Assembly: GCA_949358305.1 (NCBI GenBank)
Contig: OX442319.1
Span: 4,588,001-4,652,000, forward strand
Direction: 5' to 3'
Source of the DNA: Strigamia acuminata
Taxonomy: Eukaryota > Arthropoda > Chilopoda > Geophilomorpha > Linotaeniidae
Length of the DNA: 64,000 nucleotides
Part shown: positions 722 through 51,534 of the stretch, one piece after another
Layout: each line of letters starts with the position of its first letter
Position numbering within the stretch: the first letter of the stretch is position 1
Made by a program: the position numbers and the translations under genes
Notes under the pieces: generated by a model
The model's database searches: none
Seen by the model: only the letters and a program-made list of their open reading frames with translations
Told to the model about the DNA's origin: nothing

Positions 722-2795
722 ATGGCATTACGTAGAACATGGGGACCATTAGACCCCGCTTGCATCACTCGTGGCGGGATATTTCGAGGCGCGCTGCCCG
801 ATTTTTACCGACGATGTTTCGGCGAAGACGCCGACCCTTGGCGCCTGCGAATACTACATTCCCGATGCATCGCCCGACGTTGGGTACGAGACTGCACGCT
901 CCTGGATACGTTCCCGGAGGGAATGCGCGAAGGCATCGCCACAGAGTTAGCTCGTGACGATGACCCGAAATCGCCAATTTTCCACCCCGGATTGTCAAGT
1001 CAGTACACTGGCAACCCGGCGGAGGAACACGTGCTGCATGCGTGGCGAGCAGCCGAGACAGAAGAGGCCCGTGAGGCCATCTATCAGCATTATAGACAAC
1101 AGCTGGTGGATACCGCTACGGCAGTGGCCGAGCGCATCCTCCAAAACGAGGGGATGACCGCGGATGATATTCATCTGTGGTTTGAGAGGCTGCGATTGGG
1201 AGAGAGTACGCCCCAGTGGAGACCTCGGATGGGAATTTTAACATCCCAAGCCGAGATGTGGCAGCTCCACTACCTGGGGATTTTGGGGCCCAAGAGCAGC
1301 TACCCGCGGAAGCGCAAGCGCTCCAAAGGCGCCGGGGACAGCCAGTCGCGTTCCCCAGCGACAACCAAGAAGCAGCGTGTCGCTCAAAACACGACTGAAG
1401 GCAACGAAGCTGGGCCATCCACTAGTACGGTGCGTGACCCTTCGCAGTATTCCCGACCGCGAATTTTCGTAAACCGTCAGATTAAAGACGGTAAGGAGTA
1501 CAAGGAGGTTTGGATGTCTGGTGACGAAGAGCGAGTCTCTCGTCCCAGCACTTCTAGACGTCCGCTGACTCATCGCGAGCAGCGGAAAAAAGATCGCAAA
1601 GAGCGATACTTCGCGAGGTGCGAAGCTCGGGGCCGTCCCATCCCCGAACCCGCCTACGTCTCCAAGAGAGCGGGTCGACGAAGTGGTAGCCAGTCAGGTG
1701 AGCGAAGCGTCCCAGCGGCAGATACGCGGGACCTTCGCGAGATTCTGACTCAGATGAAGCGGACGAAACTGACACGTTTCGATCCCGCGATGAAACACGC
1801 CAGGAAGATGGGTGTTGTCACCGACGGGAAGGTGACCCCACACGAGGTGGCAAGGTGGCTCGCAGACTACATAAATTCGCGACCACGACCCGATGGCACG
1901 CCAACCGCCATCGTGCAGCCTTCGGGCTCCGGACAACATCTCCCGGCGCCCCAAGTCGCAATGACTGGGGTGCAGACGACGGAGACGCCACCACCGCCGA
2001 CGCAGCCAACACCACCGCTGCCGACGCCAACGCTGCCGACCAAGACGCAGCCGCCTCCGAACCTGCCGCCGCCGTCGTTGTTGAATTCGAGCGATCCGCC
2101 GGATTTGCACACCGACCGCTCAGTCCCTCTCCCCGTTGGACAGAGCATTGCGCAGGAATGTCGAGCCAATTTGACCGGCATTTACAGGCCGAGCCAACCC
2201 CGACCCGGTTCCTCGGCCCTGTTTTTCGAGAGGCGAGACGAAGAAGCGCGACTCGCGAGAGAAGCCGCCAACCCGACTATCTCCGAGCTCTCAGCGTTCC
2301 GCTTCGTGATGGAAGACCCAAGAGTCTCCGCACCCGCCTTGCGAGGTGTGGACCAGGCCCAGCGATATTTCATCGAATGGGCAACGGCGATGATGAGTAA
2401 GCTCTCGTGTGCCTTCACTGCGGATTCAGAGCGATCGAATCCAGTGAATCGTCGCAGCCTACAGCTATCATTGACCAAGGTCATGATGCAGCTGCTAACC
2501 CCAGCACTCTTCGGAGAAGGGCGTCAGGCGATGGCCGCATGGTCTGTCGTGGACAGAGAGGGTGTACAGGTTCCCCGTGCACTCCTCGCAGAGTGGAGTT
2601 CCATTCTGCCCGACCCTGTGTTGACTCGGTACGAGCTAACCAGGGATGTGGTAAACCCCGAATTCGAGGGGTACAAGTTGCGAAGCACGGCGTTTCGTTA
2701 CACCTCCGCCACCTGGACAGCGGCGCCTACCCAACAACTGCGCGCCTTGACCATCCAGACGGAAGAATCGGCAGAGGATGTAGACATGGTGATCT
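722..2795 (+). pseudogene. 5' part of a non-env 3' ORF of an LTR element, split by Copia-1
   Basis: First 2,074 bases of a long ORF starting at ATG 722. It stays in frame to the 5-bp target site GATCT (2791-2795), where Copia-1 is inserted. The same frame resumes after the second GATCT, so the uninterrupted ORF would have coded for about 921 residues. I do not recognise the family. There is no CCHC knuckle, aspartic protease, RT or integrase motif. Visible traits are a basic, Arg/Lys-rich stretch (about residues 190-350), a Pro/Thr-rich linker (about 395-465) and a more globular alpha-helical-looking C-terminal third. It lies just upstream of a polypurine tract and LTR, so I infer an accessory ORF in the env position. 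It could instead be an unusual gag. The GC-rich coding sequence contrasts with its AT-rich leader. Confidence 0.6.
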
Positions 2796-3348
2796 TGTTG
2801 GACTTTGGAACCGCTTTTCACCTAATTAAATCGTTTTTCGATGTGAAATGACTTTGAAATGTTTATTTTATTATCCATCGGTTATCTTTTCTTATTCGGG
2901 GTAATTTAGTATTGTTTCTTATGTTTTTCCTTAGTTTCTATGTAAAGGGAATGCATGATGCCTTTTAGATGTGTCTTATCCATCTGGCATCATGCATCCT
3001 CTATTCTGTGTGTATTTCTACTTATTGTTTCTATTTTCGGCCACCAGATGTCTCTGGCAGATTGCAAATGGCCGCGCACACAGCCAGTGTGTTTCTCTAT
3101 GTTTTCCAATGGTTTTTGGATCAATTATGTAAGTTTTCTCGAATTAAAGTGTATTTTGTTAATTATCAGTATTAGTTTATGTGCCACACGTCGTTATAAG
3201 TGTGGCACACGCGTTTTCTGGCCCAATACAGACCCGAACTCGCGTTTACGCATCACGGCAATTTTTCCAGCTCATGCATTGCCGTGAGCACGTTATTTTC
3301 ACGCTTCCAGCACGATTTATCGTGCATTTATTGCGCCACAGAGCTACA
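2796..3348 (+). repeat. 5' LTR of Copia-1
   Basis: 553 bp, starting TGTTGGACTTTGG and ending GAGCTACA. It matches 9025-9577 without visible differences. The short ORFs inside it also occur in the 3' copy and are not taken as genes. Confidence 0.97.
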
Positions 3349-3350
3349 AG

Positions 3351-3363
3351 TGGTAGCAGAGGC
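3351..3363 (+). other. Primer-binding site of Copia-1
   Basis: TGGTAGCAGAGGC, two bases after the LTR. It begins with TGG, as expected for complementarity to a tRNA CCA end, and resembles the initiator-Met-type site common in copia elements. The exact tRNA is not proven. Confidence 0.7.
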
Positions 3364-4070
3364 CTGGAAAGACACCAGTGCCTCGTTTTTTCACTAATTT
3401 TCCGTAAATTTCGCGATTTTTTCGCGATTTGTGCGGAAATTTTTGTTTATTTCCAGTTTTTCGCCGAATTTCCGATGTCTCGACACACTTTGTACCCCGG
3501 AGTACAGTGTGGCCACATAGAACTTCATCTCGCTTAGTACCCCGGTGTACGGCGAATTTTTTTTCAGAAGTTTTTCCCGATTTTCACAATCGGACGGCGA
3601 TTTTTTTCCCGATTTTCGAAATCGGTCGGCGATCTTTTGAAGAATTCCGCATTTTTTATGCGCGGTGTGCACAGGGACGTCTGTGCATACAGATTCATCA
3701 ACTTCTCCTTCCTTTTATTTCAGATTTCGAATTTATTTGTTAGTTTTAAGTTTTTTGGTGTGGGTCAATTAGAATCCTTGGCGCCCTTCGTCCAAATCTG
3801 GGCAAGCGTCACTGTATTCTTAGACAAGGCTGAGCCCTGCGCCACCTAACATTCCCGCGGCCCCAGGTGGTCATAAAGGACGTTAGGGGGACACTTGTCT
3901 AAGGTTTTCAAGCCAATTTTAGCATTGGCTCCCCGTCGAGGTCTTTCCGCTTCGAACAACGTTTGTGTGTGCGTCGGTAGTGCTTCGAGTGCTTCGAGTG
4001 AAAAGTGCTTCAATTTCGTCAATTGTGCTTCGATTTTCGGAAATTTTTCGACGATTTTTCCTCCGCAATC

Positions 4071-7000
4071 ATGCAAAAGGCTTCCGAAGCGACGTTGGGA
4101 CGTGTACCGGTCCTGACGACCGGCAACTACGAACAATGGCAACGAACAGTTAAGATGTTGCTCAAAAGTGAAGGCCTGTGGCATCACGTCACAGAAGACG
4201 GCGAGGAGGATTTTCTGAAGACGGCGGATGATAAAGAGAAACGCAAATATCAACGTCGGAAGGAACGAGCCCTAGGAACAATTTATTGTTTGGTATCCGA
4301 AGCCAAACAGTCGGCACTCGATGGCTGCGAGACACCGAAGGAACAATGGGACATGCTCGCCAAGATCTACGCCCCCAGTTCACTTGCCCGTCAGGCAGCT
4401 ATGCGCCGACAGTTCTTGCAATTGAAACTGGAGCCGAACGAGGAGATGCCCGATTTCCTGGGGCGTGTAGACCTGATGGTTCGTCAATTGAAGGACATCG
4501 GAGAGGACATTCTCCCTCGACATCAGGCCTACCAGTACCTCGATTTTCTTCCAGCGGATTACGACCAGGCAACGTTCTCCATTTACCATTGGCCGTTGGC
4601 GAATTTTACCCCGGCCAAAGTCTCCGAACAGCTCTTGTCGGAATACCTTCGTTTGAAGTCGAAATCCGACCACGATACGAAGAAGACGACGGCATTCGCC
4701 GCGGACAATCGCAACCGCAGTCAATCTCGCAATCCTCGTCCACTATCGCAAATTTGTTGTTTCAATTGCGATCAGATGGGCCACTACGCGAACAAATGCC
4801 CTCTTCCGCGCCGACAATCGAAGGAACAGCAACCGGCAGCTGCACTACAAGGACGATCTCGCAGCAAAAACCGACGTCGAAAGGGAACCAATTCTCAGCA
4901 ACCGGGTGGTCAAAGCCGTGAAATTTCCCGCCCGCGACGTGATGCTGCGTACCTCTTGTCTGCGCCACCAGTTGTTACAGCACCGACTGTGCATTTCCTC
5001 CAATCCCACGAATGGATCGTTGATTGCGGCGCAACCGACCACGTGTCGCACGTTAAAGCGTGGTTCACGAACTTTGTTTCCGTTGTCCCGTTTAACATCG
5101 AGTTAGGACAAGGCAGTTCGAAGGTCACAGGCAAAGGTGACGTTCCGGTCAAGTCGCTCATCGATGGCTGCGAATGCACCGTAATGCTACGCGACGTCTT
5201 ATTCGCACCTGACTTCGGCGCCAACTTAATCTCGGTTTCTCGGATTGATAAATGCGGACATCACATCCACATTCACAACTCGGAATTGCATACGTATGAA
5301 ACGGACATCAAACTAAGTGTTCTTCGGGCGAAACAGAAGTCTGGACTTTATTTCGTGGATGGGCTTATCTCGCCATTCGCCGCTCCGACTAATGTTTCGA
5401 GTTCTCCACCCGTTTCATCGTTGCCTCCGACTCCGACACCGACCACTCTAGTGACGAAGGAAGAGGACTTTCCCGCATTGCCCAAGTCTTCCAACAAGGC
5501 TAAGACGAAGTCGGCTGACAATATGACCGATTTCCGCTTGCCCGTCTCCTCCAACACCTTACTGGTCCCTTCATTTTTTCCTACCAGTCCTGCTCCTATT
5601 CCCGGATCCCAACCTCAACAGATCCGGATGTATTCCAATGCCCTCACATCTCCTCTTCCCGTTGCCAAGTCAAACGCAACATTACCTCCTCCTGTTGCTA
5701 AGTCAAATGCAACATCACCTCTTAAACCGGTTACTACGTCGGTCAACGTCGCGGATGCCACGGGATTGTGGCACAGCAGACTGGGTCACCTGCACACCAA
5801 AGCCATGCGGACTTTGGCTGCTAACTCCCAGGTTTACGGACTTGATCCAGCTGCTGTTCGACAGGAACTTTCATGCAACACGTGCCGTGTCGCCAAGTCT
5901 ACGCGTGCTTCGCATAAGCCGATTTCCGCGCCTTTGACCACGAAACCGCTTGAATTGCTTCACATGGACGTCTGGGGTCCGTCGAGGCTGCCTTCCATTG
6001 GTGGCGCTAATTTCGCCTTCACCATTATCGACGACGCCACCAGGTATGCCTGGCTTTTCCCGATCGCCCGTAAATCCGATGTTTTTGCTACCTTCAAAGA
6101 CTTTGTTTCCCGTGTTGAACGTATAGCCGATTGCCGGATCAAAACGATTCGTACCGACCGTGGAGGAGAATTCATTTCAAGGGATTTTGACCGTTATCTC
6201 GCCGACAAGGGCATTGTTGCACAACGGACCAATCCCGCGAGCCCACAAATGAACGGAGTCGCCGAACGCCTGAACCGGACGATGGGCGATTATCTCCGCT
6301 CCGTTAGATCCGAAACCGGATTTCCGCATACGCTTTGGGCCGAACTTGCTGTGACTTTCGTGTACATCAAGAACCGAAGTCCGCATTCGAAGCTCAACGA
6401 CGAAATCCCGTACATTTTGTGGCGCCAGCGAGCTCTCTCCGTCAGACATTTTCGTAAAATCGGTTCCAAGTGCTGGGTGCACTTCACCGCGCCTGGACGC
6501 AACAAACTGGATCCTCGAGCGTGGGAGGGATTTCTCGTCGGCTACGCTTCTGGTACTCGCGGTTATCGAGTTTTGAATCCGGCTACGAACACTGTCACCG
6601 AAACTGTCCACGTCCAAATCGATGAACGGCAGAACTTTAAACGCTCGCCCTTTTATGTTCCGGATCCGGATGACAATGCTCCACCCATGGAGGAGCCTGC
6701 TCGTGGCCACACCCCGTCGCGTGTCACTTTTCATGATAATTTCCCAACTCAACCTTGGCCTCGACGACGTCGCGATTCGGATAACGATTCTTCCGCCGGC
6801 AGTAGTGACGATGATGGAATTATCAGTCGTGCTCAGTCTGTCGCTTCGACCGCTCCGTCTTTCGCTTCATTTGCCCCGTCCGCCGCTGCAAGCGTGCCTC
6901 TGGATGGTGAGGCTATTCCTGATGGCTCCGTGACCGCTGCCGATGACTCCGTTACTGCAGCGACCGTTGCAGGACATGGCCAATTTTCTCCAACCATACG

Positions 7001-8978
7001 TTCCACGCGTTTACCCCAGCTGCGACGTTCGATCTCTTACCCAACTCTTCCATGTCTTGACGATACCACGGCGATGTCTGTACAGGGTTCTGACTTTGAC
7101 GACGACCTTCTTGACGAAGCGGCCGCCTTGCCTATTCCCGCTCCGGGTACGCCTAATTTGGCCCCTTTACGTGCTCTTCATTGCCCTTGGAGTTTTATTG
7201 GCGGCGTTTCGCCCTTCAGCGGATGGAGGAGAGAGGAACATCTCCGGAAAGATCAAATCCCGGGAAAGATCAAGGTCGACGTTTATTATTATCCGGAACA
7301 CGGTGTCCGCTTGCGGTCGCAGAACGATATCGCCGCTTATTGTTTCGCACATCGGCTACCGTATGACGAGTCTATTTTCTTTTTTGGCAATTTGGAACAC
7401 CACATGCCCTATGTTCCACCATCGCCTCATCGTGTCTTCATGTGTTTTCGGGAACCGGCCACATATGCCGAAGCAGTTAAATTGCCCGAAGCACCGAAAT
7501 GGACCGAAGCAATCGACGAGGAGCTTTCTACTTTCAAGAAGCGCGAGGTTTACAAAGAGGTTCCGCGTCCACCGGATAAGACAGTCCTAGGTTGCAAGTG
7601 GATTTTCAAGTTAAAATCGGACGCCACCGGGACAATTCATCGATACCGTGCCCGACTTGTCGCACAAGGTTTCCGCCAAACAATGGGCGTTGATTTCGAT
7701 GAAGTTTTTAGTCCGGTAGTTAACTTCGTGCTCATCCGATTTTTCTTCTGTCTTCTAGTCGTCTTGTTGGGATGGAGGGATACTCATCTCGACGTAAAAT
7801 GTGCCTACCTCTACGGCGACCTCGACCACGAAATCTACATGCGGATTCCCGCCGGTGCCACATGCTCCTCGCCCGACAACGTCTGGTTGTTGACCAAGTC
7901 GCTTTACGGTCTTCATCAGTCGGGGCGCATGTGGTACCAAAAGCTCGATGAAACGTTAACCGGACTCGGATTCCAGAAATTTCCGGCTTGTAATTGCGTT
8001 TACGCATTTGGACATTCGGCCATCATGTTAGTTTACGTTGACGACATCGTTTTATTTTACGCGTCGGAGAACATCCGAGACCGTATTCTTGCATTGATCA
8101 CGAGCAAGTTCGAAATCGTCAACCTCGGCCCGATAACCAAGTTGCTCGGAGTGGAATTCGAGCGTCGTGACGGGAAAGTCTTCATGACTCAACGCAATTA
8201 CATCGATAAACTCCTCAAAAAGTTTAATGTTTCGTCCGATGCACTCATTAAAGTGCCTGTTACACCGGGAACCACGCTCGTGAAAGGCTCGTTGGACAAT
8301 CTCCCGGATTTCCCGTATCGGTCGCTCATCGGATCATTACTTTTTCTCGCTTCTCGCACTCGTCCCGATATCTTATACTCGGTCATCGCTCTCTCGCAGT
8401 ACAACAACTGCTACGACCAAAGCCACATTAAGTGTTTGCTTCAAGTTCTTCGATATGTGGCCAATACGAGTGATTATTCCATCGAACTTTCGAAATGCGA
8501 TTCGAGTCAACTGTGGGGTTGCACAGACGCCTCTTGGGCCTCCGACATTGCTACATCGAGATCATTCGGCGGATACATTGTCTACATCGGAAGTGTGCCC
8601 ATTGGCTGGAGCTGCAAGAAACAGACCAGCGTTGCCTGCTCCACTATGGAAGCCGAATTTGTGGCATTAGTCGAAATCGTCAAAGAATTATACTGGTTGG
8701 ACAGTATTTATCAAGTATTTCCGCCTTTACGTCGATTATCGAAACCGATCATATTTTCCGATGCCCTCGCCTCGATTCAGTTCACGAACAACGACATCGA
8801 GAACTCGAAAACGAAACATATTCGAGTAAAATTTCACTGGCTTCGTGAGTGGCATATTGCCGGATGTTTCGAACTCCGCAAGATTCCGGGTGAGATAAAT
8901 GTATCCGACATTTTCACCAAGTGGCTCAGTTCAGAGCGCCTCCGGAATTTATTATCACGCATTTTCGTCTCGAAGTAG
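4071..8978 (+). CDS. Copia-1 Gag-Pol polyprotein with an MBD-like insert
   Basis: Single ORF of 1,635 residues. I chose the ATG at 4071; the open frame before it has no better start. Domains in order: Gag with one CCHC zinc knuckle (C230-C243); aspartic protease with a DCGAT core near 318, Cys replacing the usual Ser/Thr; GAG-pre-integrase HHCC near 565-610; integrase with catalytic acidic residues in MDVWGP (near 632), DRGGEF (near 696) and the later Glu; long Ser/Pro-rich spacer; an MBD-like segment at about 1046-1106; reverse transcriptase with YVDD near 1322; RNase H with TDASWASD near 1485. All catalytic blocks are visible and uninterrupted, so the protein is probably functional. The MBD-like segment is not part of the canonical copia layout. 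The protein would form the particle, copy the RNA and integrate the cDNA. Confidence 0.95.
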   Translation: MQKASEATLGRVPVLTTGNYEQWQRTVKMLLKSEGLWHHVTEDGEEDFLKTADDKEKRKYQRRKERALGTIYCLVSEAKQSALDGCETPKEQWDMLAKIYAPSSLARQAAMRRQFLQLKLEPNEEMPDFLGRVDLMVRQLKDIGEDILPRHQAYQYLDFLPADYDQATFSIYHWPLANFTPAKVSEQLLSEYLRLKSKSDHDTKKTTAFAADNRNRSQSRNPRPLSQICCFNCDQMGHYANKCPLPRRQSKEQQPAAALQGRSRSKNRRRKGTNSQQPGGQSREISRPRRDAAYLLSAPPVVTAPTVHFLQSHEWIVDCGATDHVSHVKAWFTNFVSVVPFNIELGQGSSKVTGKGDVPVKSLIDGCECTVMLRDVLFAPDFGANLISVSRIDKCGHHIHIHNSELHTYETDIKLSVLRAKQKSGLYFVDGLISPFAAPTNVSSSPPVSSLPPTPTPTTLVTKEEDFPALPKSSNKAKTKSADNMTDFRLPVSSNTLLVPSFFPTSPAPIPGSQPQQIRMYSNALTSPLPVAKSNATLPPPVAKSNATSPLKPVTTSVNVADATGLWHSRLGHLHTKAMRTLAANSQVYGLDPAAVRQELSCNTCRVAKSTRASHKPISAPLTTKPLELLHMDVWGPSRLPSIGGANFAFTIIDDATRYAWLFPIARKSDVFATFKDFVSRVERIADCRIKTIRTDRGGEFISRDFDRYLADKGIVAQRTNPASPQMNGVAERLNRTMGDYLRSVRSETGFPHTLWAELAVTFVYIKNRSPHSKLNDEIPYILWRQRALSVRHFRKIGSKCWVHFTAPGRNKLDPRAWEGFLVGYASGTRGYRVLNPATNTVTETVHVQIDERQNFKRSPFYVPDPDDNAPPMEEPARGHTPSRVTFHDNFPTQPWPRRRRDSDNDSSAGSSDDDGIISRAQSVASTAPSFASFAPSAAASVPLDGEAIPDGSVTAADDSVTAATVAGHGQFSPTIRSTRLPQLRRSISYPTLPCLDDTTAMSVQGSDFDDDLLDEAAALPIPAPGTPNLAPLRALHCPWSFIGGVSPFSGWRREEHLRKDQIPGKIKVDVYYYPEHGVRLRSQNDIAAYCFAHRLPYDESIFFFGNLEHHMPYVPPSPHRVFMCFREPATYAEAVKLPEAPKWTEAIDEELSTFKKREVYKEVPRPPDKTVLGCKWIFKLKSDATGTIHRYRARLVAQGFRQTMGVDFDEVFSPVVNFVLIRFFFCLLVVLLGWRDTHLDVKCAYLYGDLDHEIYMRIPAGATCSSPDNVWLLTKSLYGLHQSGRMWYQKLDETLTGLGFQKFPACNCVYAFGHSAIMLVYVDDIVLFYASENIRDRILALITSKFEIVNLGPITKLLGVEFERRDGKVFMTQRNYIDKLLKKFNVSSDALIKVPVTPGTTLVKGSLDNLPDFPYRSLIGSLLFLASRTRPDILYSVIALSQYNNCYDQSHIKCLLQVLRYVANTSDYSIELSKCDSSQLWGCTDASWASDIATSRSFGGYIVYIGSVPIGWSCKKQTSVACSTMEAEFVALVEIVKELYWLDSIYQVFPPLRRLSKPIIFSDALASIQFTNNDIENSKTKHIRVKFHWLREWHIAGCFELRKIPGEINVSDIFTKWLSSERLRNLLSRIFVSK
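7206..7389 (+). other. MBD-like domain coding segment in Copia-1 pol
   Basis: Encodes about 61 residues between integrase and RT. A GW-R start (G1051, W1052, R1053), an RK pair, GK followed by DVYYY, P-x-x-G, LRS, an Ile-Ala-Ala-Tyr helix and a final F-F-F follow the order and spacing of methyl-CpG-binding domains (GWxR, RxxG, GKxDVYY, PxGKxxRS, helix, FxF). This is motif reading, not a profile search. Key DNA-contact positions (the Arg of RxxGxxxGK and of RS) appear partly retained. Inference: a targeting or chromatin-reading module. Confidence 0.6.
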
Positions 8979-9013
8979 CTTTTTCGATCATTCAACACCG
9001 ACATTTTACATCG

Positions 9014-9024
9014 AAGGAGGGAAT
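9014..9024 (+). other. Polypurine tract of Copia-1
   Basis: AAGGAGGGAAT lies directly before the 3' LTR TG. It would prime plus-strand DNA synthesis. Confidence 0.8.
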
Positions 9025-9577
9025 TGTTGGACTTTGGAACCGCTTTTCACCTAATTAAATCGTTTTTCGATGTGAAATGACTTTGAAATGTTTATTTTAT
9101 TATCCATCGGTTATCTTTTCTTATTCGGGGTAATTTAGTATTGTTTCTTATGTTTTTCCTTAGTTTCTATGTAAAGGGAATGCATGATGCCTTTTAGATG
9201 TGTCTTATCCATCTGGCATCATGCATCCTCTATTCTGTGTGTATTTCTACTTATTGTTTCTATTTTCGGCCACCAGATGTCTCTGGCAGATTGCAAATGG
9301 CCGCGCACACAGCCAGTGTGTTTCTCTATGTTTTCCAATGGTTTTTGGATCAATTATGTAAGTTTTCTCGAATTAAAGTGTATTTTGTTAATTATCAGTA
9401 TTAGTTTATGTGCCACACGTCGTTATAAGTGTGGCACACGCGTTTTCTGGCCCAATACAGACCCGAACTCGCGTTTACGCATCACGGCAATTTTTCCAGC
9501 TCATGCATTGCCGTGAGCACGTTATTTTCACGCTTCCAGCACGATTTATCGTGCATTTATTGCGCCACAGAGCTACA
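9025..9577 (+). repeat. 3' LTR of Copia-1
   Basis: 553 bp, same termini as the 5' LTR, followed by the second GATCT duplication at 9578-9582. Confidence 0.97.
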
Positions 9578-9582
9578 GATCT

Positions 9583-10274
9583 CGCCGACGAGCGGAGTTC
9601 CGATTCCGCCACCGATGCCTGCGGAGATATCCCCGCAAGGACCCGCCCTGTTCGAAGTGGCGGGTAAACCAAAGCGCTTGCTGTGCCGAACGCCACCCGT
9701 CAGGTCCGTCGAGCAAACGAAGCCGACACCGCCCGGGACCTCGCCGGCCCGAGCGGCGACATCAACGCAAGCAGTGATTCCCGCGGCCACCCAGAAGCCG
9801 AAGCCGGCACCACCTCCACCAGACTATTATGGGCGAATCATCGACGAGTTTCCCCATCTTTCGATGACGACGGCGACCAGGAGGTTTATCCTCGCGCAGC
9901 GGGACAAAGGCAAATCGGTCTTCATCTGGCTTCACAACCAGATCCGGAAGACTAAAGACCTCATCTTCCACCAGAGGTTGCTGAGAGCCCACCGTGCGCC
10001 AGTGACGCCAGCGGAAGCCAATGCCATCCGGCATACGAACACCGGCTTCTCCGCCTACATCCCGAGCGTTTGGTTACACGAGAGGACGCGTGCCCCGCAT
10101 GAGCCAGTTGACGGCCATGCATTATGTTTCATTACGGAGCATGAGGACCCCCGTGATCGGTCCTCGGCGCTAGTAGGCGATCTACCCGCGCCACCCGGCA
10201 CTCAACCGCCTGTCCCTGGAGTGAGTTACGCCCAGGTGACGGACTCAGTGTCGGGTCCCCCAGGAAAGAAGTGA
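9583..10274 (+). pseudogene. 3' part of the ORF interrupted by Copia-1
   Basis: Continuation, in the same phase, of the ORF that begins at 722. It starts immediately after the second GATCT and ends at TGA 10272-10274. It encodes a Pro-rich stretch followed by a segment with aromatic and basic residues, and no domain I recognise. It ends 36 bases before the LTR, with a polypurine tract between. The only break in the ORF is the Copia-1 insertion, which again suggests that Copia-1 arrived recently. Confidence 0.6.
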
Positions 10275-39140: not shown

Positions 39141-40730
39141 TGTGACGGTTACACTGTCAAACACTTTGTTAATATAGGACGAACATTTCACCGATAGATG
39201 GCGCTGGTACGTTTTAGCGGTAATTTCAAATTTCGACAATTTTTGAGTGAATAAAATATAAATTACTATTTATATTTTATTCCACTGCGACTTTAGACAC
39301 TTTTAAATACTTTTGGATGTTTAAATATTAGTTGATTTATTTGTCACATAATTCTATTGAATTATGTGCAAACTCTACACCTGGTGAAGTCACCCCCCAT
39401 CACCCACTGTGAGTTGGACTCCTTTTGGATTATAGTCAAAGGGACTTAATCCAAAATGTGTCCTGCGTATCCAGTTCCTGTAGTGGACCTAGTAGAAGAC
39501 TATGTCCTGAGTATCCACTTCCTATGATCTGGGATTGGATGGATTTGACTGCCCAGTGATCCCATTGGATCACTGAACAGCTATTCTCCTCACCGAGTAT
39601 ATATCCCCCTGCAAAACGGATATAGCTCGCTCTTGTTCTGTTTTTGTTTGATACTGATATTACTTGAGCACATATTATACTTCTCTACGTTCCGACAATC
39701 CGTTGTAGAAATACTTTGTATTTAGTGTAAGTATCTAGAGTGGGTAGAAGACTCACAGACACACTTCCCGCCTCTTCATGCCAACATTCCGTTGTAGAAA
39801 TGTAGTAACTAGAGTGGAGAGATTCACAGACACATTTAAGTGTAGTATCTAGAGTGGGGTACAACCCACAGACGCACTCCCTCCAGCTTCATGCCAACAT
39901 TCCGTTGTAGAGTGCAGAATCTAGAGTGGAGTAAAATTCACAGACGCATTGGTAATGTAGAATCTAGAGTGGAGTATTTATATTTCACAGACGCATTATC
40001 AGAGTGATCGACGCGGAGTAATTTCCCGGTTACTCTCCCGCCAGCCAGGACCGAGTGGAGTAATTTCCCGGCGATGGATAACCTTTCCTGCGAGATATTT
40101 CGATTCAATTCGTTATTGGTTTGACGGAACATTTAAGTCTAACTTAGATGTTGATTGCACTCGGGGCAAAAATAGCTCGGCGCTATTTTAATATATTTTA
40201 CTTATTTTCATAGTTTTAGTTAAGTTTGTGACTATAAAATATCATGATCAATTCCATAGAATTAATATGAATATTTATTCTCACATTGTTACATCTCGCA
40301 ATAATTATTGATTACAATAATTATCTGCGACGCGATGTGTGTGACGATACAGAAAAGTCAACCGCACCTCTCGGATATAACCCACCCAGCCTAACCATTT
40401 ACACGCCTTTTAGAACCAAACCCCGGACCATTTAGAAGCCAAAGCCATTCATAGATGACATCTTTTACGTCACAGCAATAAGACCGTTACAAATTCTTAT
40501 TGCATGACTGAAGCCTTCAAATGATATTATTTCAGGGCTTTTGCCAAATAACTGTATAGTTTAACTTATCGTCATTTTAGCCACTTGTAGGCATAGTATT
40601 TATATAAGGTTCAAACCGGAATAAATGTTATATGTTTTGAGAAAACATCAGGTTTGCATATTTTACATTTTCACACGGATAGTTCACACTTTAGTTTAGC
40701 AATTGCTATCTCCAGAAGGTAATCGTCACA
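39141..40730 (+). repeat. 5' LTR of Gypsy-1
   Basis: 1,590 bp, TGTGACGGTTAC...GGTAATCGTCACA, with inverted TGTGACG/CGTCACA ends. It contains an internal tandem array near 39690-40010 of units carrying TCTAGAGTGGAG...CACAGACGCA. AATAAATG occurs near 40620. Confidence 0.95.
39690..40010 (+). repeat. Tandem units within the Gypsy-1 LTR
   Basis: Five diverged units with TCCGTTGTAGA...ATCTAGAGTGG...CACAGACGCACT. The same array is in the 3' LTR (about 52084-52404). Possibly enhancer-like. Confidence 0.75.
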
Positions 40731-40731
40731 C

Positions 40732-40750
40732 GTGGAGGTTCCACCGAGAT
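40732..40750 (+). other. Primer-binding site of Gypsy-1
   Basis: TGGAGGTTCCACCGAGAT, starting two bases after the LTR. TGG-initial, as expected for a tRNA 3' end complement; the tRNA is not identified. Confidence 0.6.
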
Positions 40751-41593
40751 AGGTTGCATTTTATTGAAGTGAACTCTGTGATCAAGTGTAAAATTGAAAA
40801 ATGAATTTTTTGATTATTTTATGTAGATATTATAATTAGAAAATTTCCGATTTTTCTCTATAAATTTACTGTGAAATATTCATTTGTTTTCAAAAAATTC
40901 TCATTATCTTTTGGAAATATTTGGAGTCGAATTTTTGGATTATTTTGAAAACTCATTATAATTCCGAATCTCTTACGAAAAAATCTATTTTGATTTTCCC
41001 AGAATATTCGGCTATATTCTGAAAAATTGCGAAACCTTGAATTTCGATCAAAAACGAATTTGACTAGAAATTCTGCTGACTAAAAAATAAAAAGTTAAAA
41101 TATTTTATGTTACTGGTTAAAAACTTGACTAGTTTTCTATTGTTCTGTCAATGTTAGGAATTATGATTTTTTAATCCCTGACAAGGTAAAGAATGTGCCA
41201 AAGAGAGCCACTCACGATGCAGCTCGGAGTAGGTCATCCAGATGTGACATTGTTGAGAATTTCGGGTTAGAAATTATCAGAAATTTTTCAACATCGCCAA
41301 TCGCAGCAGACTGTCTTGACAAAGGAGATTTTCCGGAAGCTAGTTTGACAACCAATATTCAGCCACACTTGCTTTTCGACAGTGCGACCATCCAGTTGTG
41401 CCTTTGTGACCAGTGCCCGTTTGGACCATTCTTGACCACGCAACAGGACAGTTTTTTCCCGAAGCCACTTCAGTTTTAGCAGCTAAGGTTGTATTTTTTC
41501 AAATTATTTCTTAGTTTAATATTAAGCGTGTTACATTTACGCTAGTCAGTTAAAGTTTATTTTTTCTTTTGTACGTGTATTTCTTTGAGTATT

Positions 41594-43642
41594 ATGGCCC
41601 GTAGACCTGTAAGAGTTCGTGGAACACGAGGAAATCGTGGAGCACGACGACGTGGTGGTATGTGTGAAACACCAAGAGGAATTGTGGAGTCTGATTTAGA
41701 AAGCCAGGGGGAAGAAAATGTTCCTAGAGACGTTTCCAACCCAGGTAGTTCTCAAACGGATCCACTATCCGTCCCGCATGATTTAGAGGTTTACTGTCGC
41801 CATTACCAATTGGAAGTGACGCAGTTTTCCTCTCTGTGTGAAGCTCAACAATACACGGCGAATAATCATCACGAGAGAAATCGTGTAATTACTCCCGATG
41901 TAGTTGTAACCAACGAACGAAGTGTTTCTGTAGATCGAACTGGCCCTCGTTCACCGGCCACATATCGCTACCAGCAATTACCTGGATGGCGAATGAATGT
42001 TGCTCGTGACGACAATGGGCAGTTAAATTCTTCATTATCCGTTCAACCTTCGATTCAGTTACCAGCTAGTTCTTGGCGATCGAATTCGGCCGAAAGAATG
42101 GGAAATTCCGGACAAGGAAATATTTCTGCGCCAATTTCCCGAAATTTGCCAAGTGCGACGGCAGTAAATAATAATTTACCCGCTCCCACTGGGAATTTGA
42201 ATGATTCTTTTCGAGTTCCACAGCCTCGAACTAATCTGTCGGTCCTACCAAGGGGGAGAAATGAAAATTATCAAAATTTTCAATCTCACACCCAATCTGA
42301 TGGGGATTTTAGGAATTATAGAAATTCCCGCTCTCAGGGTGGACGAGCTCCGCCGAGAAATCAACGATTTCCCAGAGCTCCTGGTGACCCTCGTGACTCC
42401 GATCCTAACTCGAGTAGTGACGAATCTCACGCTGGTGGAGGGGGAAATTATAACAATAATTTCCACCGACGTAATAATTCTCGTTCTCCTCCGCCACCTG
42501 ATAGACGCCAAAATTTTCGAGAAGAACCAAATCCGCCACTCAGAGACCAAGAAAGTCGGTCTACACCCAATTCGAACTCTGCTTCTAATTTGTCAGACGA
42601 AAACGTAAAACAAATTATTCAGGGTTTGGTTGGTCAGATTCGAAGCCCGAGTAATCCCAGTCAGAATTTTGGAAAAGGAATCGAGATTCCTATTTTTGAC
42701 GGGAAACAGACAGAGGTTGCGCGATTCCTTGAAATCGTCAAAGCTGTCGCACTCGGGAAAGGCATTCCTTTAGACGACATGGTACACACTGCTGTACCTG
42801 GACGACTATTAGGCCATGCACAACGTTGGTTCCATAAGCAACGCCACACTTTTAACAGTTGGCGAACTTTCGAAGCCTCTTTTCTCGATTGTTTCGACCT
42901 CGTTCCACTTACAAGAGAAAGGCGACTTCTTAATGTAAAACAACGAGCCGACGAATCACTTTATAGTTTTCTTCTGCGTTATACGCAAGAACAAGGTGAA
43001 GTGCCGCCAGGTGATAAAACTGGACGTGCGCAATTATTCGACAATCTAACTCAAGAAAGTTTCACGGCGTTATGTACACAAGGAATGTATGGTAACTTTA
43101 CAGTAGATGACATTCTACAATATGTAGGAGCAAATCGCTCTAAGTTTGAAAGTTCTCAACTTGCAGCCAAATTGGAGTACGATAATCGAGAGAATCATCC
43201 TACTCCCAAACTTCACGAAAAATCTAAGATTTTTCCATCCAAAACCTCACTACGTTTAACGCAAACACAAGATGAAGTTGAAGATGAAGACGAGTCGGAA
43301 AATGACGACTCAACTGACGATGGTTCAATGGAGCGATTATTTGCCGCCCAGTATGAAAAAACTACTGGAAAATGCTTTTTCTGTCACGAGCCTGGACATT
43401 TTAAAAGAGAATGTCCCGCTCTTGCCAAAAAATTAGCAGGGAAATCAGACTCGTTAAATACAAATAAAAGATTTAACCACTCTGCTCCCAACCCCGAGTT
43501 TAAACGACCCAAACAAAATTGGGTTACGTCAGAAACTTTAGACTCCAAATTTACTGACTTCCAGAAAAACATGGTTGACCTGTTAATTAAGCATTTACCA
43601 GCAGCCACTGAGTCAGTCACTCCCGATGAGACAAAAAACTGA
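41594..43642 (+). CDS. Gypsy-1 Gag
   Basis: 682 residues from ATG 41594 (the first ATG; the open frame extends three codons upstream without ATG). The N-terminal half is Arg/Ser/Asn-rich and probably disordered. A Gag capsid-like helical region lies near 355-520, with one CCHC knuckle near 594-607 (CFFCHEPGHFKREC). It ends in ACA AAA AAC TGA, where the A-AAA-AAC heptamer is an in-frame -1 slippery site directly before the stop. It forms the particle and binds RNA. Very long for a Gypsy Gag because of the extended N-terminus. Confidence 0.9.
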   Translation: MARRPVRVRGTRGNRGARRRGGMCETPRGIVESDLESQGEENVPRDVSNPGSSQTDPLSVPHDLEVYCRHYQLEVTQFSSLCEAQQYTANNHHERNRVITPDVVVTNERSVSVDRTGPRSPATYRYQQLPGWRMNVARDDNGQLNSSLSVQPSIQLPASSWRSNSAERMGNSGQGNISAPISRNLPSATAVNNNLPAPTGNLNDSFRVPQPRTNLSVLPRGRNENYQNFQSHTQSDGDFRNYRNSRSQGGRAPPRNQRFPRAPGDPRDSDPNSSSDESHAGGGGNYNNNFHRRNNSRSPPPPDRRQNFREEPNPPLRDQESRSTPNSNSASNLSDENVKQIIQGLVGQIRSPSNPSQNFGKGIEIPIFDGKQTEVARFLEIVKAVALGKGIPLDDMVHTAVPGRLLGHAQRWFHKQRHTFNSWRTFEASFLDCFDLVPLTRERRLLNVKQRADESLYSFLLRYTQEQGEVPPGDKTGRAQLFDNLTQESFTALCTQGMYGNFTVDDILQYVGANRSKFESSQLAAKLEYDNRENHPTPKLHEKSKIFPSKTSLRLTQTQDEVEDEDESENDDSTDDGSMERLFAAQYEKTTGKCFFCHEPGHFKRECPALAKKLAGKSDSLNTNKRFNHSAPNPEFKRPKQNWVTSETLDSKFTDFQKNMVDLLIKHLPAATESVTPDETKN

Positions 43643-43673
43643 TTCAGGGGGTTGTTCAAGTTGCCCAACCCCC
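43633..43673 (+). promoter_or_regulatory. -1 ribosomal frameshift signal at the gag-pol junction
   Basis: Slippery heptamer A AAA AAC (43633-43639), in the correct phase, then a 7-nt spacer that includes the gag TGA. A hairpin follows, with perfect stem GGGGGTTG (43647-43654) / CAACCCCC (43666-43673) and an 11-nt loop. The -1 frame opens exactly into pol, which has no ATG of its own at its start. Confidence 0.85.
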
Positions 43674-45019
43674 GCCTAACGAGTTGTTTCCTCTCTCGGA
43701 ATTTTCAAATGATTTATTTTTTCATAAAAAAGAAATTAAAATAAGACATAAGCCTAGTCATCTCACAGTACCTTATGTCGATGATTCGAAGAATAAACCA
43801 CCATCGTTGGTCATTTCTTACGAAGCAGTGCCTGTCTGTCGGAAAGCTAGTAGTTCCACTGGTGGTGTCGATGAGAATTTAAAAATCATGACAGACCAAC
43901 TAGAAAATTTGAGTATTTTCAGTGGAAGTTGGAATGCGCCAAAGAAACCGCTTGTACCCAAAGTTTTCAAGTTAAGGAAAATTCTTAAACTTGAAAAATG
44001 GAACAAGAAAGAACGAAAAATATTTCTTGGCAAACTTTGCAATAGCAAATTAATTAATGGTGGCAAAGATGATCCGCGTATGAATGTCCAAATTGGAGGT
44101 TTAGATTACAACGCACTAATGGACTCTGGAGCCACCCAATGTTTTATTGGAGTACAACTCCTTTCAAACACAGAAATTCCGGTGGAATTCATACAAGAAT
44201 GTCCCCGCGGAATGCGTGTCTGCGCGGTCGGAATAGATCACCGACCTATCGGTCAAGTTTGTCTTTGTGTCAAATGGGCCGATAAAAGGAGAGTTACACC
44301 TATGACCTTCATAATTCTACACAAGAATGTATGTGGGTTGATTTTGGGTCACAATTTTATGCGTAGAACGGGGATAAACCCTAATCCTCGACGGGCTGTG
44401 TTCACCTGTGATGACATGCCCGGATGGACAGCGCCATACGAGACCACTGAACTTAACTGTTGTTTAGCAAGCATTAGGACTTTGGGTCTCCAAGGTGAAG
44501 GAACTCCCACTTCACCTGATTGGGCAGAAAAACTCGTCGAAGGCTGCAACAGCTCGGCGGAAGAAAAACGGTTACTCGTAAACGTTCTTTTGCAATTAAA
44601 AAACGTATTTCGAGATCAATTGGGCTGTACGAAGGTGGCCAAGCACAGCATCAAGTTTAAACCTGGTGCTACTTGGAAACACCAGCCATATAGAATGTAC
44701 AATCCAGCCAAGAAGGCCATTATGACGGAATTGGTCGAGGAGTTAGAGGCTGATGGGTTAATCGAACCTGCCACTGGCCCTTATATAAGTCACCCCGTCA
44801 TAGTGGCTAAACCCGGCGGGAAGTATCGATTATGTATCGACTACCGCTGGTTGAATGCGATCACAGAAGTTGATGCAATTCAAATGCCAAGTATTGACCT
44901 ATTAATTCACCATACTAATCAGGCCAAGTACTTTACATCCATTGATTTAACTAAAGGTTATCATCAAATGGAAATGGAGGAGGAGGATAAGAGCAAAACT
45001 GCTTTTTACACTCCAAAAA
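43639..45019 (+). CDS. Gypsy-1 Pol, protease and first half of RT
   Basis: Read in the -1 frame after gag. A linker is followed by an aspartic protease with LMDSGATQCFIG (near 44115) and the RT N-terminus (YRLCIDYRWLN; SIDLTKGYHQMEME with a catalytic Asp). The frame is lost in the A-run at 45015-45019: a single extra A shifts the reading, which then stops at 45060. The rest of pol continues one frame over from 45020. So this copy cannot make intact RT unless the base is a sequencing error or is bypassed by slippage. Confidence 0.85.
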
Positions 45020-47920
45020 GGCAAATTTCAATTCAAGAGACTGCCATTTGGTCTTTGTAATGCACCTAGCTCTTTTCAACACCTCATGACTACCGTATTG
45101 GGTGACTCTTTATATAAACACGCTCTGGTCTACTTAGACGATATAATTATTTTTTCCGACACATGGGAAAATCATTTATTACATATTAAAGACGTACTTG
45201 AGAAGTTAGATGCCGCAAATCTAACTATCAATAAAGACAAGTCAAAATTTGGTCGAACATCATTACGATTTTTAGGCCATTTAATTTCCGAGGGATCTCT
45301 TCTTCCAGACCCGGACAAAGTCTCGGCTGTAAGGAATTTTCCCAAACCGACTTGTTCTAAAGACATTCAGAGATTTGTAGGACTTGCGAATTTTTTCCGA
45401 AAATTTATTCCTAACATCGCAAATATTGCTCGTCCATTGACCAATATTATGCATGATCAAGCAAAGTTTGTGTGGGATGATCCACAAACAACTGCATTCG
45501 AAACTATCAAAGATATTTTGTGTGACAAGGACCAAGCCCTTCTCCACATGCCAGATATGAATAAGCCTTTTGTCATTTTGACAGATGCTTCTCATTCAGG
45601 TTTAGGTGCAGTACTCTGTCAAGACGTAGAATTATTCTGTGAAAAGAAACAGAAATTAATTATGGTCCCAAAAGCAGTCGCGTACGCCAGTCGAGTGTTA
45701 CACGGGGCCGAAGTAAGGTATTCTACGCCGGAATTGGAGTGTTTGGCCGTTGTATGGGCAATCGAAAGATTTCGCCCTTATATTGAATACACGACTTTCA
45801 CTCTCGAGTCCGATGCTAAGGCCCTTAGCTGGTTGATGAGTACGCCGGAACCATCGGGAAGGTTTGGTCGTTGGGCCGTCAAAATACAATGTGGCGCGTT
45901 TAAAATTATTTTTAGACGCGGTGCAATGAACCAAGTAGCGGACGCATTATCACGCGCTCCACTGTCTGCACTAGACACTCCGGATTATGATTATATCGAA
46001 CCAGAGGAGATCACCCATTTCTATCCAACTTGGAATGGAAACAGGTGTGCATCTTTACAAGTGACGGAGACTGAGCGCAAACATTTTCTCACAAATGTTG
46101 GCCTTAGTTTGGATTTTTTCTCAGAATCATATAATCCAGTTAGATTTCATGATTCTGGAGAAAAGGGGGAGGAAGAAGGATGTACGAGAGAAAATTGCAG
46201 ACATATAGATGTCCACAATTGTAATCACGAAAATGTACACACTGCGCTAACAGATATCCTAAAAGTAGTTCCGCCGACGCGAGACGAAATTATCGAAGCG
46301 CAGCTTAAAGATCCAGCATGTAGTAAAATCCTTGTTTACCTAAAAGGAGACGAAAAATTAAAAAATCGTATCACGGATAAACATTGGTTAAATGCGATTC
46401 GTGGCTACACTCTCGACGAACCGGAAGAAAATAAAGGTGTTATGCTAATTTATTTTGCTCCGACCGATGAGGAGGAGTTAAACGACTCCGGCAACGGGTT
46501 TAAGGCGGTAATTCCACGCTCTCTTGTGAGACGTGCATTATTCGCATGCCATGGCCACCCACTTACAGGACACGCTGGCATGAGTAAAACCCTAGATAGA
46601 GCAAAGAAGATGTATTTCTGGCCTAGAATGAGCAAAGACACTCGAAACTACGTTCGCAGTTGCACTCATTGCCAACAATACAAACCTAGTCAACACCAAA
46701 AGCATCGGGCAAGCTATACACCCCACAACATGACCAACCCATGGGAGACAATAAGCATTGACCTGATGGGACCAAAGCCAGCTGGTCGTTCACAATTAAA
46801 ATGGATTTTAGTAATCATTGATAATTGTACAAAATGGATTGAAGTCTTCCCACTAGCAACTGCATCAAGTGAATGCATTGTTAATAAGATGAGCGAAGTT
46901 TTCCACCGTTGGGGATATCCAAAAAAGATAATCTCCGACAACGGCAAACAATTCGTGTCAACAATATTTAATGATTTTTGTCGAAAAAATCACGTAGATA
47001 TTGCTCACATTAGCCCATATCACGCTGCCGCTAATATTACAGAGCGGGCTAACAGGACTTTAAAAATGATGTTAGCTTTATACTCAGACATTCACTCTCA
47101 CTGGCCAAAATATTTAAATTCTTTTGCCTTTGCGATGCGCACCGCTAAGTCCGAGGCAACAAATTGTTCTCCGATGATTCTTAATACAGGAAGAATCGTT
47201 CCTTTGCCATTTGACCCGCGTATTACTAAACACGCCATCAAATTCGACAAAGAGAACCCCGAAGCTTATGTCTATAGTATTTTAGACGTAATTAGACGTG
47301 CACACAGCGAAATGCATCGGAAAATTCAATCGAATTACGAAAAGCATGATCGACTACATAAAGACAAATATTATATTTGTCAATTTGCCAAAGGAGATCT
47401 CGTGTGGAAAGCCACACATATTTTATCAAATAAAGATAAAGGGATTTCGGCAGGATTCGCTGAGAAACGTGATGGACCTTGGGAAATTACGGCTATTCTC
47501 GGCGGAGGTTCCTACACGCTACGGAAGCTCTCCGACAATTCAAAAGCAAAAGCGATCAACATACAGGATTTAATGCCTTATATCCCAAGTTACCCGATTG
47601 AGGAATGGACATTAGATCAGAAAGTCGGTACCAACGAGTCACACCCGACTCCAGATTGGATGGCAGGTCAGGTTATTAATTCTTCAGAATTAATAAATGA
47701 ACCTGTGTCCATAGAAACAGGGGATTTAGTTGAAGAGAAAGAGGAGGAAACTTCTCAGATTTCTTCTAAAGAGGACGAAACTCCTCAAAATCCGTCTAAA
47801 AAGAGGAAAAGATTTCCATCTCCCGTTCGACAGTCTAAACGAAGACCCAAGCCGAACACAAAATACGTGACCGATTTTGTACAACTCATAAATTGTTTAA
47901 CACAAGTCAAGTTGGGTTAG
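45020..47920 (+). CDS. Gypsy-1 Pol, rest of RT, RNase H and integrase
   Basis: Begins at the GKFQFKRLPFGLCNAPSSFQ block and includes YLDDIIIFS, the RT catalytic motif. RNase H follows (VILTDASHSGLGAVL near 45575), then an integrase zinc-binding region ending CTHCQQYK near 46680, then the catalytic core with IDLMGP (near 46765), DNGKQF (near 46945) and ITERANRT (near 47040). A basic tail ends at TAG 47920. I see no chromodomain. The open frame spans 944 residues from its first ATG at 45086, but by homology it joins the frame before the indel. Confidence 0.85.
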   Translation, partial: GKFQFKRLPFGLCNAPSSFQHLMTTVLGDSLYKHALVYLDDIIIFSDTWENHLLHIKDVLEKLDAANLTINKDKSKFGRTSLRFLGHLISEGSLLPDPDKVSAVRNFPKPTCSKDIQRFVGLANFFRKFIPNIANIARPLTNIMHDQAKFVWDDPQTTAFETIKDILCDKDQALLHMPDMNKPFVILTDASHSGLGAVLCQDVELFCEKKQKLIMVPKAVAYASRVLHGAEVRYSTPELECLAVVWAIERFRPYIEYTTFTLESDAKALSWLMSTPEPSGRFGRWAVKIQCGAFKIIFRRGAMNQVADALSRAPLSALDTPDYDYIEPEEITHFYPTWNGNRCASLQVTETERKHFLTNVGLSLDFFSESYNPVRFHDSGEKGEEEGCTRENCRHIDVHNCNHENVHTALTDILKVVPPTRDEIIEAQLKDPACSKILVYLKGDEKLKNRITDKHWLNAIRGYTLDEPEENKGVMLIYFAPTDEEELNDSGNGFKAVIPRSLVRRALFACHGHPLTGHAGMSKTLDRAKKMYFWPRMSKDTRNYVRSCTHCQQYKPSQHQKHRASYTPHNMTNPWETISIDLMGPKPAGRSQLKWILVIIDNCTKWIEVFPLATASSECIVNKMSEVFHRWGYPKKIISDNGKQFVSTIFNDFCRKNHVDIAHISPYHAAANITERANRTLKMMLALYSDIHSHWPKYLNSFAFAMRTAKSEATNCSPMILNTGRIVPLPFDPRITKHAIKFDKENPEAYVYSILDVIRRAHSEMHRKIQSNYEKHDRLHKDKYYICQFAKGDLVWKATHILSNKDKGISAGFAEKRDGPWEITAILGGGSYTLRKLSDNSKAKAINIQDLMPYIPSYPIEEWTLDQKVGTNESHPTPDWMAGQVINSSELINEPVSIETGDLVEEKEEETSQISSKEDETPQNPSKKRKRFPSPVRQSKRRPKPNTKYVTDFVQLINCLTQVKLG

Positions 47921-49215
47921 GACACAATATATTGAAAATATTTTATTTTTTAAATAAATATTTCCAATCATATTCACGAAGGATTGTTAAATTTTATTAA
48001 TAAAAACATTTCACCAATGTAGATAAAATTTAACAAATGTTTGAGTTATTTTTACACGGCCGATTGTATTTAAATTAATCTACGTGTAAACATTTACTTG
48101 AAACTATGTTTTCCCCCTTTGGGTTAATAGAAACTTCGAGATGAGTAATTACAAACCAATCAAATTACTCCTCGAAACTCCCCTTAACCCCTGGTTTGAG
48201 ATTATCACTCACTTGTTCGCCAAGTTTTGTACTGGACTGAAATCAAGGATTATTCTCGACTTTTCGACGCTTTAACGGATTTTCGCTGAATTTTAGTGAG
48301 TTAAAATCTAGATGATTTTGAACACTTATCGTTTATTTTACTGATTTTTTCATTTGACGAATATCAGTTCAAATTCAGAAATTATCGACACGACGCTGAT
48401 TATCGAAACCATTTCGTGGCAAAATCACAAGGAACCTTCCCGCGAATTCACTACGTGATTTTCCGGTAAATATTTAAGCAATATTTTGTCAAAATTAATA
48501 ATATTTTGACATTAATTGACGACATTTATTTTGGTTAAGCGTCCATTACGGCAGACTTAGAATTTGCACGTGCCGCACAACGTCTTTATCGGCCAACGTC
48601 GCCGGAACCGAGCAGCCCTCGCAAATACGCGAAGCTAGACGTTAAACTAGCCAAATATACCCTGTTAGGACTGCACCTAGTTAGTAAGTGTTTATTTTAT
48701 AAAAGATAAAAAATATCGCTTAAATTCCTTTGAAATTGGTGAGCATACATGTGTTAACAAGTCACGTGTATGATACTAACGAACGCCACCAGATGTCGGT
48801 GATAGATTTTTACTCGGACGAATTATAGAGTTATTCGTACAGTTAAAAATCATGTATATTGTCAGATACTAAAAATACTGCAAAAATATTTTTTAATATT
48901 TTGACAGGTTGTTTAGTTATTATGTCGTTTAGATGTAAAAATTAGGTTTATTTTATTTAATAAACACTAATTTGAATAGTTTTTCAACGATATTGTTTTA
49001 AAGGATAAGATGAAATTATCTACCAAGTCAAGAATAATTATTAATGTTAATAATTATTCGACAAATGAAGGAAACCCGCTAACAAAAGGAACTTAAGAAT
49101 TTAATTGCGAAATTAATCCAGTTGTTGGTCGACAATTAATTTAATTTGAAATTAAATTAATTACCGACAGTTTGATTCGTGTTCTCAAATAAAATTTATA
49201 TTTTTTGAAGATGCA
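47921..49215 (+). other. Spacer between Gypsy-1 pol and the 3' ORF
   Basis: AT-rich, with one coding-like patch at about 48546-48690. It reads an open, GC-richer frame (ADLEFARAAQRLYRPTSPEP) ending at a strong donor, TTA|GTAAGTG near 48690. ORF3 follows TTTTTTGAAG, acceptor-like. A spliced leader joining this patch to the 3' ORF is possible but unproven. Confidence 0.4.
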
Positions 49216-50871: not shown

Positions 50872-51520
50872 AAAAGCGTCAACGATGTCGGGATCCGTTA
50901 CTTTCCCGACATTCTCCCCTTTAAGGCAAGACCAGAAGTAACGAGTCCATTTTCTCCATCTCCATTACTTGACCCGGGATGAAACAAAGATTTAGTCAGG
51001 TTCAGGTGTATTTTATGCCGTTTTTTTTTGTGTGGATATTTCAAAGATCTTTAATATTTAAACTAACAATTCTGTTAAAATTTGATTACGAGTCAATGTG
51101 AGTTTGTTTATATGAATACTAATTTTAATACTTGAATTTTAACGTGTAAAGTGTTATTTTGCAAATCATTATATTTCCAGTGAGAAGTTACGTTTTGTGA
51201 AAATAATTGTTAAATTTTATTAATCATTTGTTTGATACAAGAGTTTGGTGTTAGTTTAAGTTATCGCCTTTTCTTGATGCAGTTGTAAGTCCACCTGTAA
51301 AGAGAGATTGGAATTATTATTAATAATTGAGAGTTTTATAATCCTAATAAATATTTTTTGAAGCATTTGATTAAGAAATACGCTTTATTTATACTATTAA
51401 GATATAAAATAAAGGTTTTTACTTACCAAGGATTACAGCTCCAGTTCCAGAGATGACAGTGTGGTCTTGATCCTCAAGATATTCGGAATAAATAGTATGT
51501 TAATACAGGTATTAACATAT
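50872..51520 (+). other. Gypsy-1 3' untranslated spacer
   Basis: AT-rich, no ORF. I see no further feature in it. Confidence 0.5.
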
Positions 51521-51534
51521 ATTTAAGGGGGACT
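51521..51534 (+). other. Polypurine tract of Gypsy-1
   Basis: ATTTAAGGGGGACT lies directly before the 3' LTR at 51535. Confidence 0.75.

Follow-up and report, generated by a model that had tools for sequence, protein, structure and literature searches.

An intact Ty1/copia element of Strigamia acuminata with a methyl-CpG-binding domain, a further case of the arthropod MBD-Copia retrotransposons

The chromodomain of chromoviruses has a role in directing integration. Retrotransposons with a methyl-CpG-binding domain (MBD) were treated in 2019 by de Mendoza, Pflueger and Lister, whose study reportedly covered Strigamia and a spider (Stegodyphus), named Copia as the element and described binding to methylated CpG-dense DNA. 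The capture of an MBD by an arthropod retrotransposon family is stated in the title of that study (Genome Res 29:1277), as it appears in the reference lists of the papers citing it (PMC9246332, PMC11244446, PMC8226279, PMC7343188, PMC12344493, PMC11721087, PMC8821070, PMC11292947). A passage citing the study adds that copia elements of other arthropods accumulate in CpG-dense DNA (PMC11721087), and another mentions DNA methyltransferases that were captured by Copia and DIRS elements (de Mendoza 2018, in PMC12344493). MBD-bearing arthropod Copia elements have thus been known since 2019, and the element described here is a well-preserved further case of a known family. An initial sequence-only reading of this DNA, which knew of no MBD in Ty1/copia pol, was mistaken in that respect.

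Organization of the element and its MBD

The window, by which we mean the whole analysed stretch of 64,000 nucleotides, contains an intact Ty1/copia element at 2796-9577 with identical long terminal repeats (LTRs) and a target-site duplication (TSD). The features are as follows.

2791-2795, no strand: left copy of the target-site duplication GATCT, equal to 9578-9582
2796-3348, plus strand: 5' LTR, TG...CA, 553 bp, 100% identical to 9025-9577
3351-3363, plus strand: probable primer-binding site TGGTAGCAGAGGC, directly inside the 5' LTR
4071-8978, plus strand: gag-pol in one open frame that starts at an in-frame ATG and ends at a stop
4149-4667, plus strand: gag, Retrotran_gag_2 (PF14223), E 6e-28
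4755-4802, plus strand: zinc knuckle (PF00098), E 5.9e-5
5013-5258, plus strand: Pol_BBD (PF22936), E 3.9e-18, probably the protease region
5757-5900, plus strand: GAG-pre-integrase (PF13976), E 2.3e-8
5940-6245, plus strand: integrase core rve (PF00665), E 4.9e-12
6429-6638, plus strand: integrase SH3-like domain (PF25597), E 2e-23
7206-7389, plus strand: MBD, PF01429 over 7221-7364, with fold matches
7545-8261, plus strand: reverse transcriptase RVT_2 (PF07727), E 7.7e-57
9013-9023, plus strand: polypurine tract GAAGGAGGGAA, immediately 5' of the 3' LTR
9025-9577, plus strand: 3' LTR, 100% identical to the 5' LTR
9578-9582, no strand: right copy of the target-site duplication, matching the left copy
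62144-63964, plus strand: second Copia frame of the window, with Pfam rve and SH3 matches and without an RVT_2 match

The sequence TGGTAGCAGAGGC at 3351-3363 is taken by us to resemble initiator-Met tRNA primer sites. The order of gag, protease, integrase and reverse transcriptase (RT), together with the LTRs, primer-binding site, polypurine tract and TSD, is that of Ty1/copia elements (Pseudoviridae), with the protease represented by Pol_BBD and the primer-binding site by its presumed likeness. The element is a recently inserted, intact Ty1/copia of the arthropod MBD-Copia kind. Its recent and intact look had already been noted from the sequence, and the 100% identical LTRs, the open gag-pol frame and the GATCT duplication bear this out.

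The insertion interrupts the open reading frame of a repeat (window 722-2795 and 9583-10274; GC 0.60), for which 131 places were scored among 602 candidates, its own included, with 96-100% identity and many of them in 929-aa frames. The left part of the interrupted frame has no Pfam match. Also present in the window is a Gypsy element of 14 kb (39141-53124), the LTRs of which are identical over 1591 aligned bases and which has a probable 4-bp duplication, AATT.

The MBD sits between the integrase and the RT. Beta strands are followed by a helix, and the motifs run in the order GWRREEHLRK...VDVYYY...RLRS...AAYC...FFF. The sequence-only reading had called this segment an MBD and had proposed a profile search, a fold check and a survey of related copia elements, all of which came out in its favor: PF01429 matches with 29.8 bits (cut-off 21), the 37 best-ranked PDB matches to the predicted fold are MBD or TAM domains, and the module is present in further Copia families belonging to one RT clade. 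A single-sequence AlphaFold2 model reached a pLDDT of 62.8 and was set aside. No chromodomain was matched at E<=1 in the six scanned pieces; the element has a copia-type RVT_2 and PF01429.

Four residues of MeCP2, Arg111, Asp121, Tyr123 and Arg133, are taken here as the methyl-CpG contact positions and equated with residues of the MBD-Copia proteins. The window copy retains the equivalents of all four. All 35 aligned MBD rows retain the first Arg as well as the Asp, and the second Arg is replaced in P0006 and P0007 only (Lys). The Tyr123 equivalent is Tyr in 19 rows and is replaced in 16, by Val in nine (L013, L022, L023, L107, L109, L111-L114), by Ile in four (L015, L016, L103, L104) and by Trp in three (L106, L108, L110).

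Copies, relatives and constraint

MBD-bearing Copia elements are numerous in the host genome (237.5 Mb searched), the counts from scored places being minimum values. When the 100-aa MBD stretch was the query, 150 of 1246 candidates were scored; at least 40 of these places, including that of the window, encode exactly this stretch, and in 149 the matched part is free of stops. The remaining scored places are mainly about 90, 77 and 57-66% identical. A search of the genome with the Pfam MBD gave 1092 candidates, and all 150 that were scored exceeded the cut-off, many of them in frames of 1550-1630 aa; the translated places are mostly Copia pols. The second Copia frame of the window has a divergent MBD-like segment at 63479-63637, which scored 31 bits with our own MBD model (best of 1000 shuffles, 7.6) and had no match to the Pfam MBD at E<=1.

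Among public proteins, 29 relatives were obtained at E<=0.001 from 1213 candidates. The MBD is present in six of them, in four by precomputed PF01429 (one from the spider Araneus ventricosus) and in two, P0006 and P0007, at the Pfam cut-off of 21 (21.0 and 21.3 bits, independent scan). The latter two also match our own MBD model, but both served as its seeds. The other 23 are absent from the matches of that model (-E 10, --domE 1). The MBD region of the family with Val at the Tyr123 equivalent (V family), used as a protein query, had no match at E<=0.001 among 118 candidates.

An RT tree built from 35 rows places the 11 that have an MBD in a single clade (support 100/100, one label change), in which the window element stands together with the Araneus protein and others; a Copia of the same host without MBD (L164) falls outside. 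The rows were selected by similarity to the window element, which leaves room for an MBD in other Copia elements; P0020 was kept although the stretch entered for it (1057 aa) was too long, and L016 and L122 are identical in the tree. The simplest account would be a single acquisition of the MBD by the element ancestral to this clade.

The MBD of the Copia families evolves under constraint, as judged from codon comparisons of 13 pairs, and the MBD-bearing elements look selected. The dN/dS ratio is 0.03-0.13 in the seven pairs with usable dS, four of which have dS above 1; dS in the MBD was unusable in the other six. Compared with the upstream spacer, the MBD has the lower dN in 11 pairs, and the two pairs with the reverse relation are close ones (L117-L118, L119-L120). 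The frames of L117 and L118 ended at their stops, so that no more than 18 RT codons remained for each comparison. The faster divergence of the spacer in the 11 pairs could be counted for the notion that a Ser/Pro-rich spacer resembles an MBD by chance, to which we give practically no credence: it is refuted by the profile, the fold, the conservation across families and the constraint on the MBD.

Integration sites and methylation of the host

Integration was studied in the 5' flanks of 20 copies from each of five families, with CpG counted over the 200 bp directly upstream of each copy. Copies were taken non-randomly from the matches listed, mostly from long frames, and those of the family with Ile (I family) standing in tandem with another copy were passed over. 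Flanks in which the 5' end was not found were dropped (one of the window family, one of the V family, two of the I family, five of the non-MBD Copia and two of the Gypsy). The mean density was 102.6 CpG/kb for the window (Tyr) family (19/20 copies located), 84.5 for the V family (19/20) and 86.4 for the I family (18/20), compared with 24.7 for a Copia control (frame of 1368 aa; 15/20) and 30.6 for a Gypsy control, the family of the element at 39141-53124 (18/20). The Copia control lacks the MBD according to our own model (one copy read, L164). In Mann-Whitney tests all three MBD families differ from both controls (p 4e-5 to 1.6e-4 for the single comparisons); no difference was seen between the two controls (p 0.25). 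The Val and Ile families thus keep inserting into CpG-dense DNA despite the replaced methyl-contact Tyr.

Flank GC is also higher in the MBD families (0.44-0.51) than in the controls (0.37), and CpG preference is distinguished from GC preference by the observed/expected ratio (o/e) only. At 200 bp the median CpG o/e is 1.38-1.61 for the MBD families vs. 0.53-0.83 for the controls (p 2e-4 to 2.1e-3). The o/e of the V family did not differ significantly from that of Gypsy at 100 bp (p 0.057). A perfect 5-bp duplication surrounds 19 of the 20 window-family copies; the remaining copy is the one whose 5' end was not located. Of the 20 insertions (flanks L043-L082), five are in a GTTAACGG-type repeat, three of them with the same duplication GTTAA, which suggests that this CpG-rich repeat is a preferred target; two others are near a GGCGCGGGC repeat. 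When these seven insertions in two CpG-rich repeats were removed, the CpG density of the window family at 450 bp was 60 vs. 30 for Gypsy (p 0.002). By visual comparison, the flank of one window-family copy corresponds to the leader of a different MBD-Copia.

CpG density served here as a proxy for methylation. The window has a CpG o/e of 1.17, that is, no CpG depletion. For a diverged repeat of the window, of which four blocks were aligned, transitions were counted at 16 of 137 CpG positions and at 68 of 1119 other C positions (p 0.018), and this twofold excess of C-to-T type transitions at CpG hints modestly at CpG methylation in the germline. Among 11 PF00145 matches in the host genome, classed by reading of motifs, four loci were assigned to a DNMT1-like class and one to a DNMT2-like class (the five at C1:30.37M, C1:11.84M, C3:32.74M, C3:35.92M and C1:28.74M), and no DNMT3 was recognised. 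For Strigamia maritima, four Dnmt1 and one Dnmt3 are given in the relevant passage of PMC4244043, and a passage of PMC7343188 places a fraction of 0.758 of 719 transposable elements (TEs) in the highly methylated group. A possible exon of a host MBD gene was seen at C5:5734472-5734570 (61% to chicken MBD2 over 33 aa, with one internal stop). The mitochondrial contig (C157, 15,068 bases) has cox1, cox2, cox3, nad6 and nad2 consecutively on one strand, the names being assigned by reading. Translated with the invertebrate code, its COX1 is most similar to that of a Mecistocephalus centipede (84%), followed by Limulus (83%) and by other arthropods with lower values; these are from the best 120 of 7999 scored candidates, among which no Strigamia is named. 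The match to arthropods led us to discard bryozoan and annelid hosts and points to a centipede-like one.

Possible role of the MBD and comparison with known systems

We consider it quite probable that a cellular-type MBD, acquired once by these Copia elements, tethers their integration to CpG-dense and probably methylated DNA. The MBD would stay attached to the integrase, bind CpG-dense, probably methylated DNA and hold the integration complex there, and new copies would then land in TE-rich DNA, away from genes. It could also be that the MBD goes with the RT instead of the integrase. Steering of integration by the MBD had been put forward in the sequence-only reading; it gains indirect support from the three MBD families lying in CpG-dense DNA while the non-MBD Copia and Gypsy controls do not. 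The CpG-dense flanks might, however, result from selection after integration or from a GC preference due to another part of the integrase. This is unlikely in our view: the higher GC of the flanks speaks for it, and, since the three MBD families represent one lineage, an effect of the MBD is not separable from one of the other integrase parts, but CpG o/e is raised as well as GC, and the sampled window-family copies look young, with their identical MBD stretches and perfect TSDs, so that selection has had little time. A still less probable role for the MBD, and one apart from integration, is to counter or exploit silencing, e.g., by occupying the element's own methylated LTRs, or to aid nuclear import. 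Host MBD proteins do act at methylated promoters, but such a role does not predict the strong difference in sites between Copia elements with and without MBD.

Tethering could also depend on CpG density and not on the methyl mark, at least in the families without the methyl-contact Tyr. We regard this as somewhat unlikely, yet less so than the preceding alternatives. The Val, Ile and Trp replacements, the CpG-dense insertions of the V and I families and the undepleted CpG of the window speak for it, while the window family retains the Tyr, both Arg and the Asp, and methyl-dependent binding of such domains was reportedly observed in 2019. The TEs of Strigamia are, in addition, mostly methylated according to the passage cited above (PMC7343188), and in such a host reading of the methyl mark and reading of CpG density predict the same sites. 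Within this one host, the MBD-Copia lineage may, as a rather doubtful suggestion, have split into different kinds of reader, with families that keep the Tyr on one side and abundant Val, Ile and Trp families on the other. If true, these families would form a natural series, with the transposon shifting the specificity of its reader away from methyl-CpG and toward CpG density or a different modified base.

The element shows how a retrotransposon may exploit the DNA-methylation landscape of its host in choosing landing sites. The host genome contains many near-identical copies, several MBD families and, as internal controls, non-MBD Copia and Gypsy elements, so that the proposed targeting lends itself to a test by long-read methylation data.

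Ty1 and Ty5 are likewise Ty1/copia elements in which the integrase C-terminus selects the target, but they contact host proteins and have no folded DNA-binding domain. Chromoviruses have similarly captured a domain that reads chromatin and lies close to the C-terminus of the integrase; unlike the present element, an MBD-bearing Copia, they belong to Ty3/gypsy and their domain reads a histone mark. The methyltransferase-bearing Copia and DIRS elements have also captured host DNA-methylation machinery, in their case a writer enzyme and in streptophytes and dinoflagellates, whereas here it is a reader. Closest are the arthropod MBD-Copia elements of 2019, with which the window element shares the arthropod host, the accumulation in CpG-dense DNA and the MBD in the Copia pol. 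Both marks of that group, an MBD in Copia pol and insertions CpG-denser than those of other LTR elements, were found here; a possible difference is that in this genome the Tyr-substituted families retain the CpG preference.
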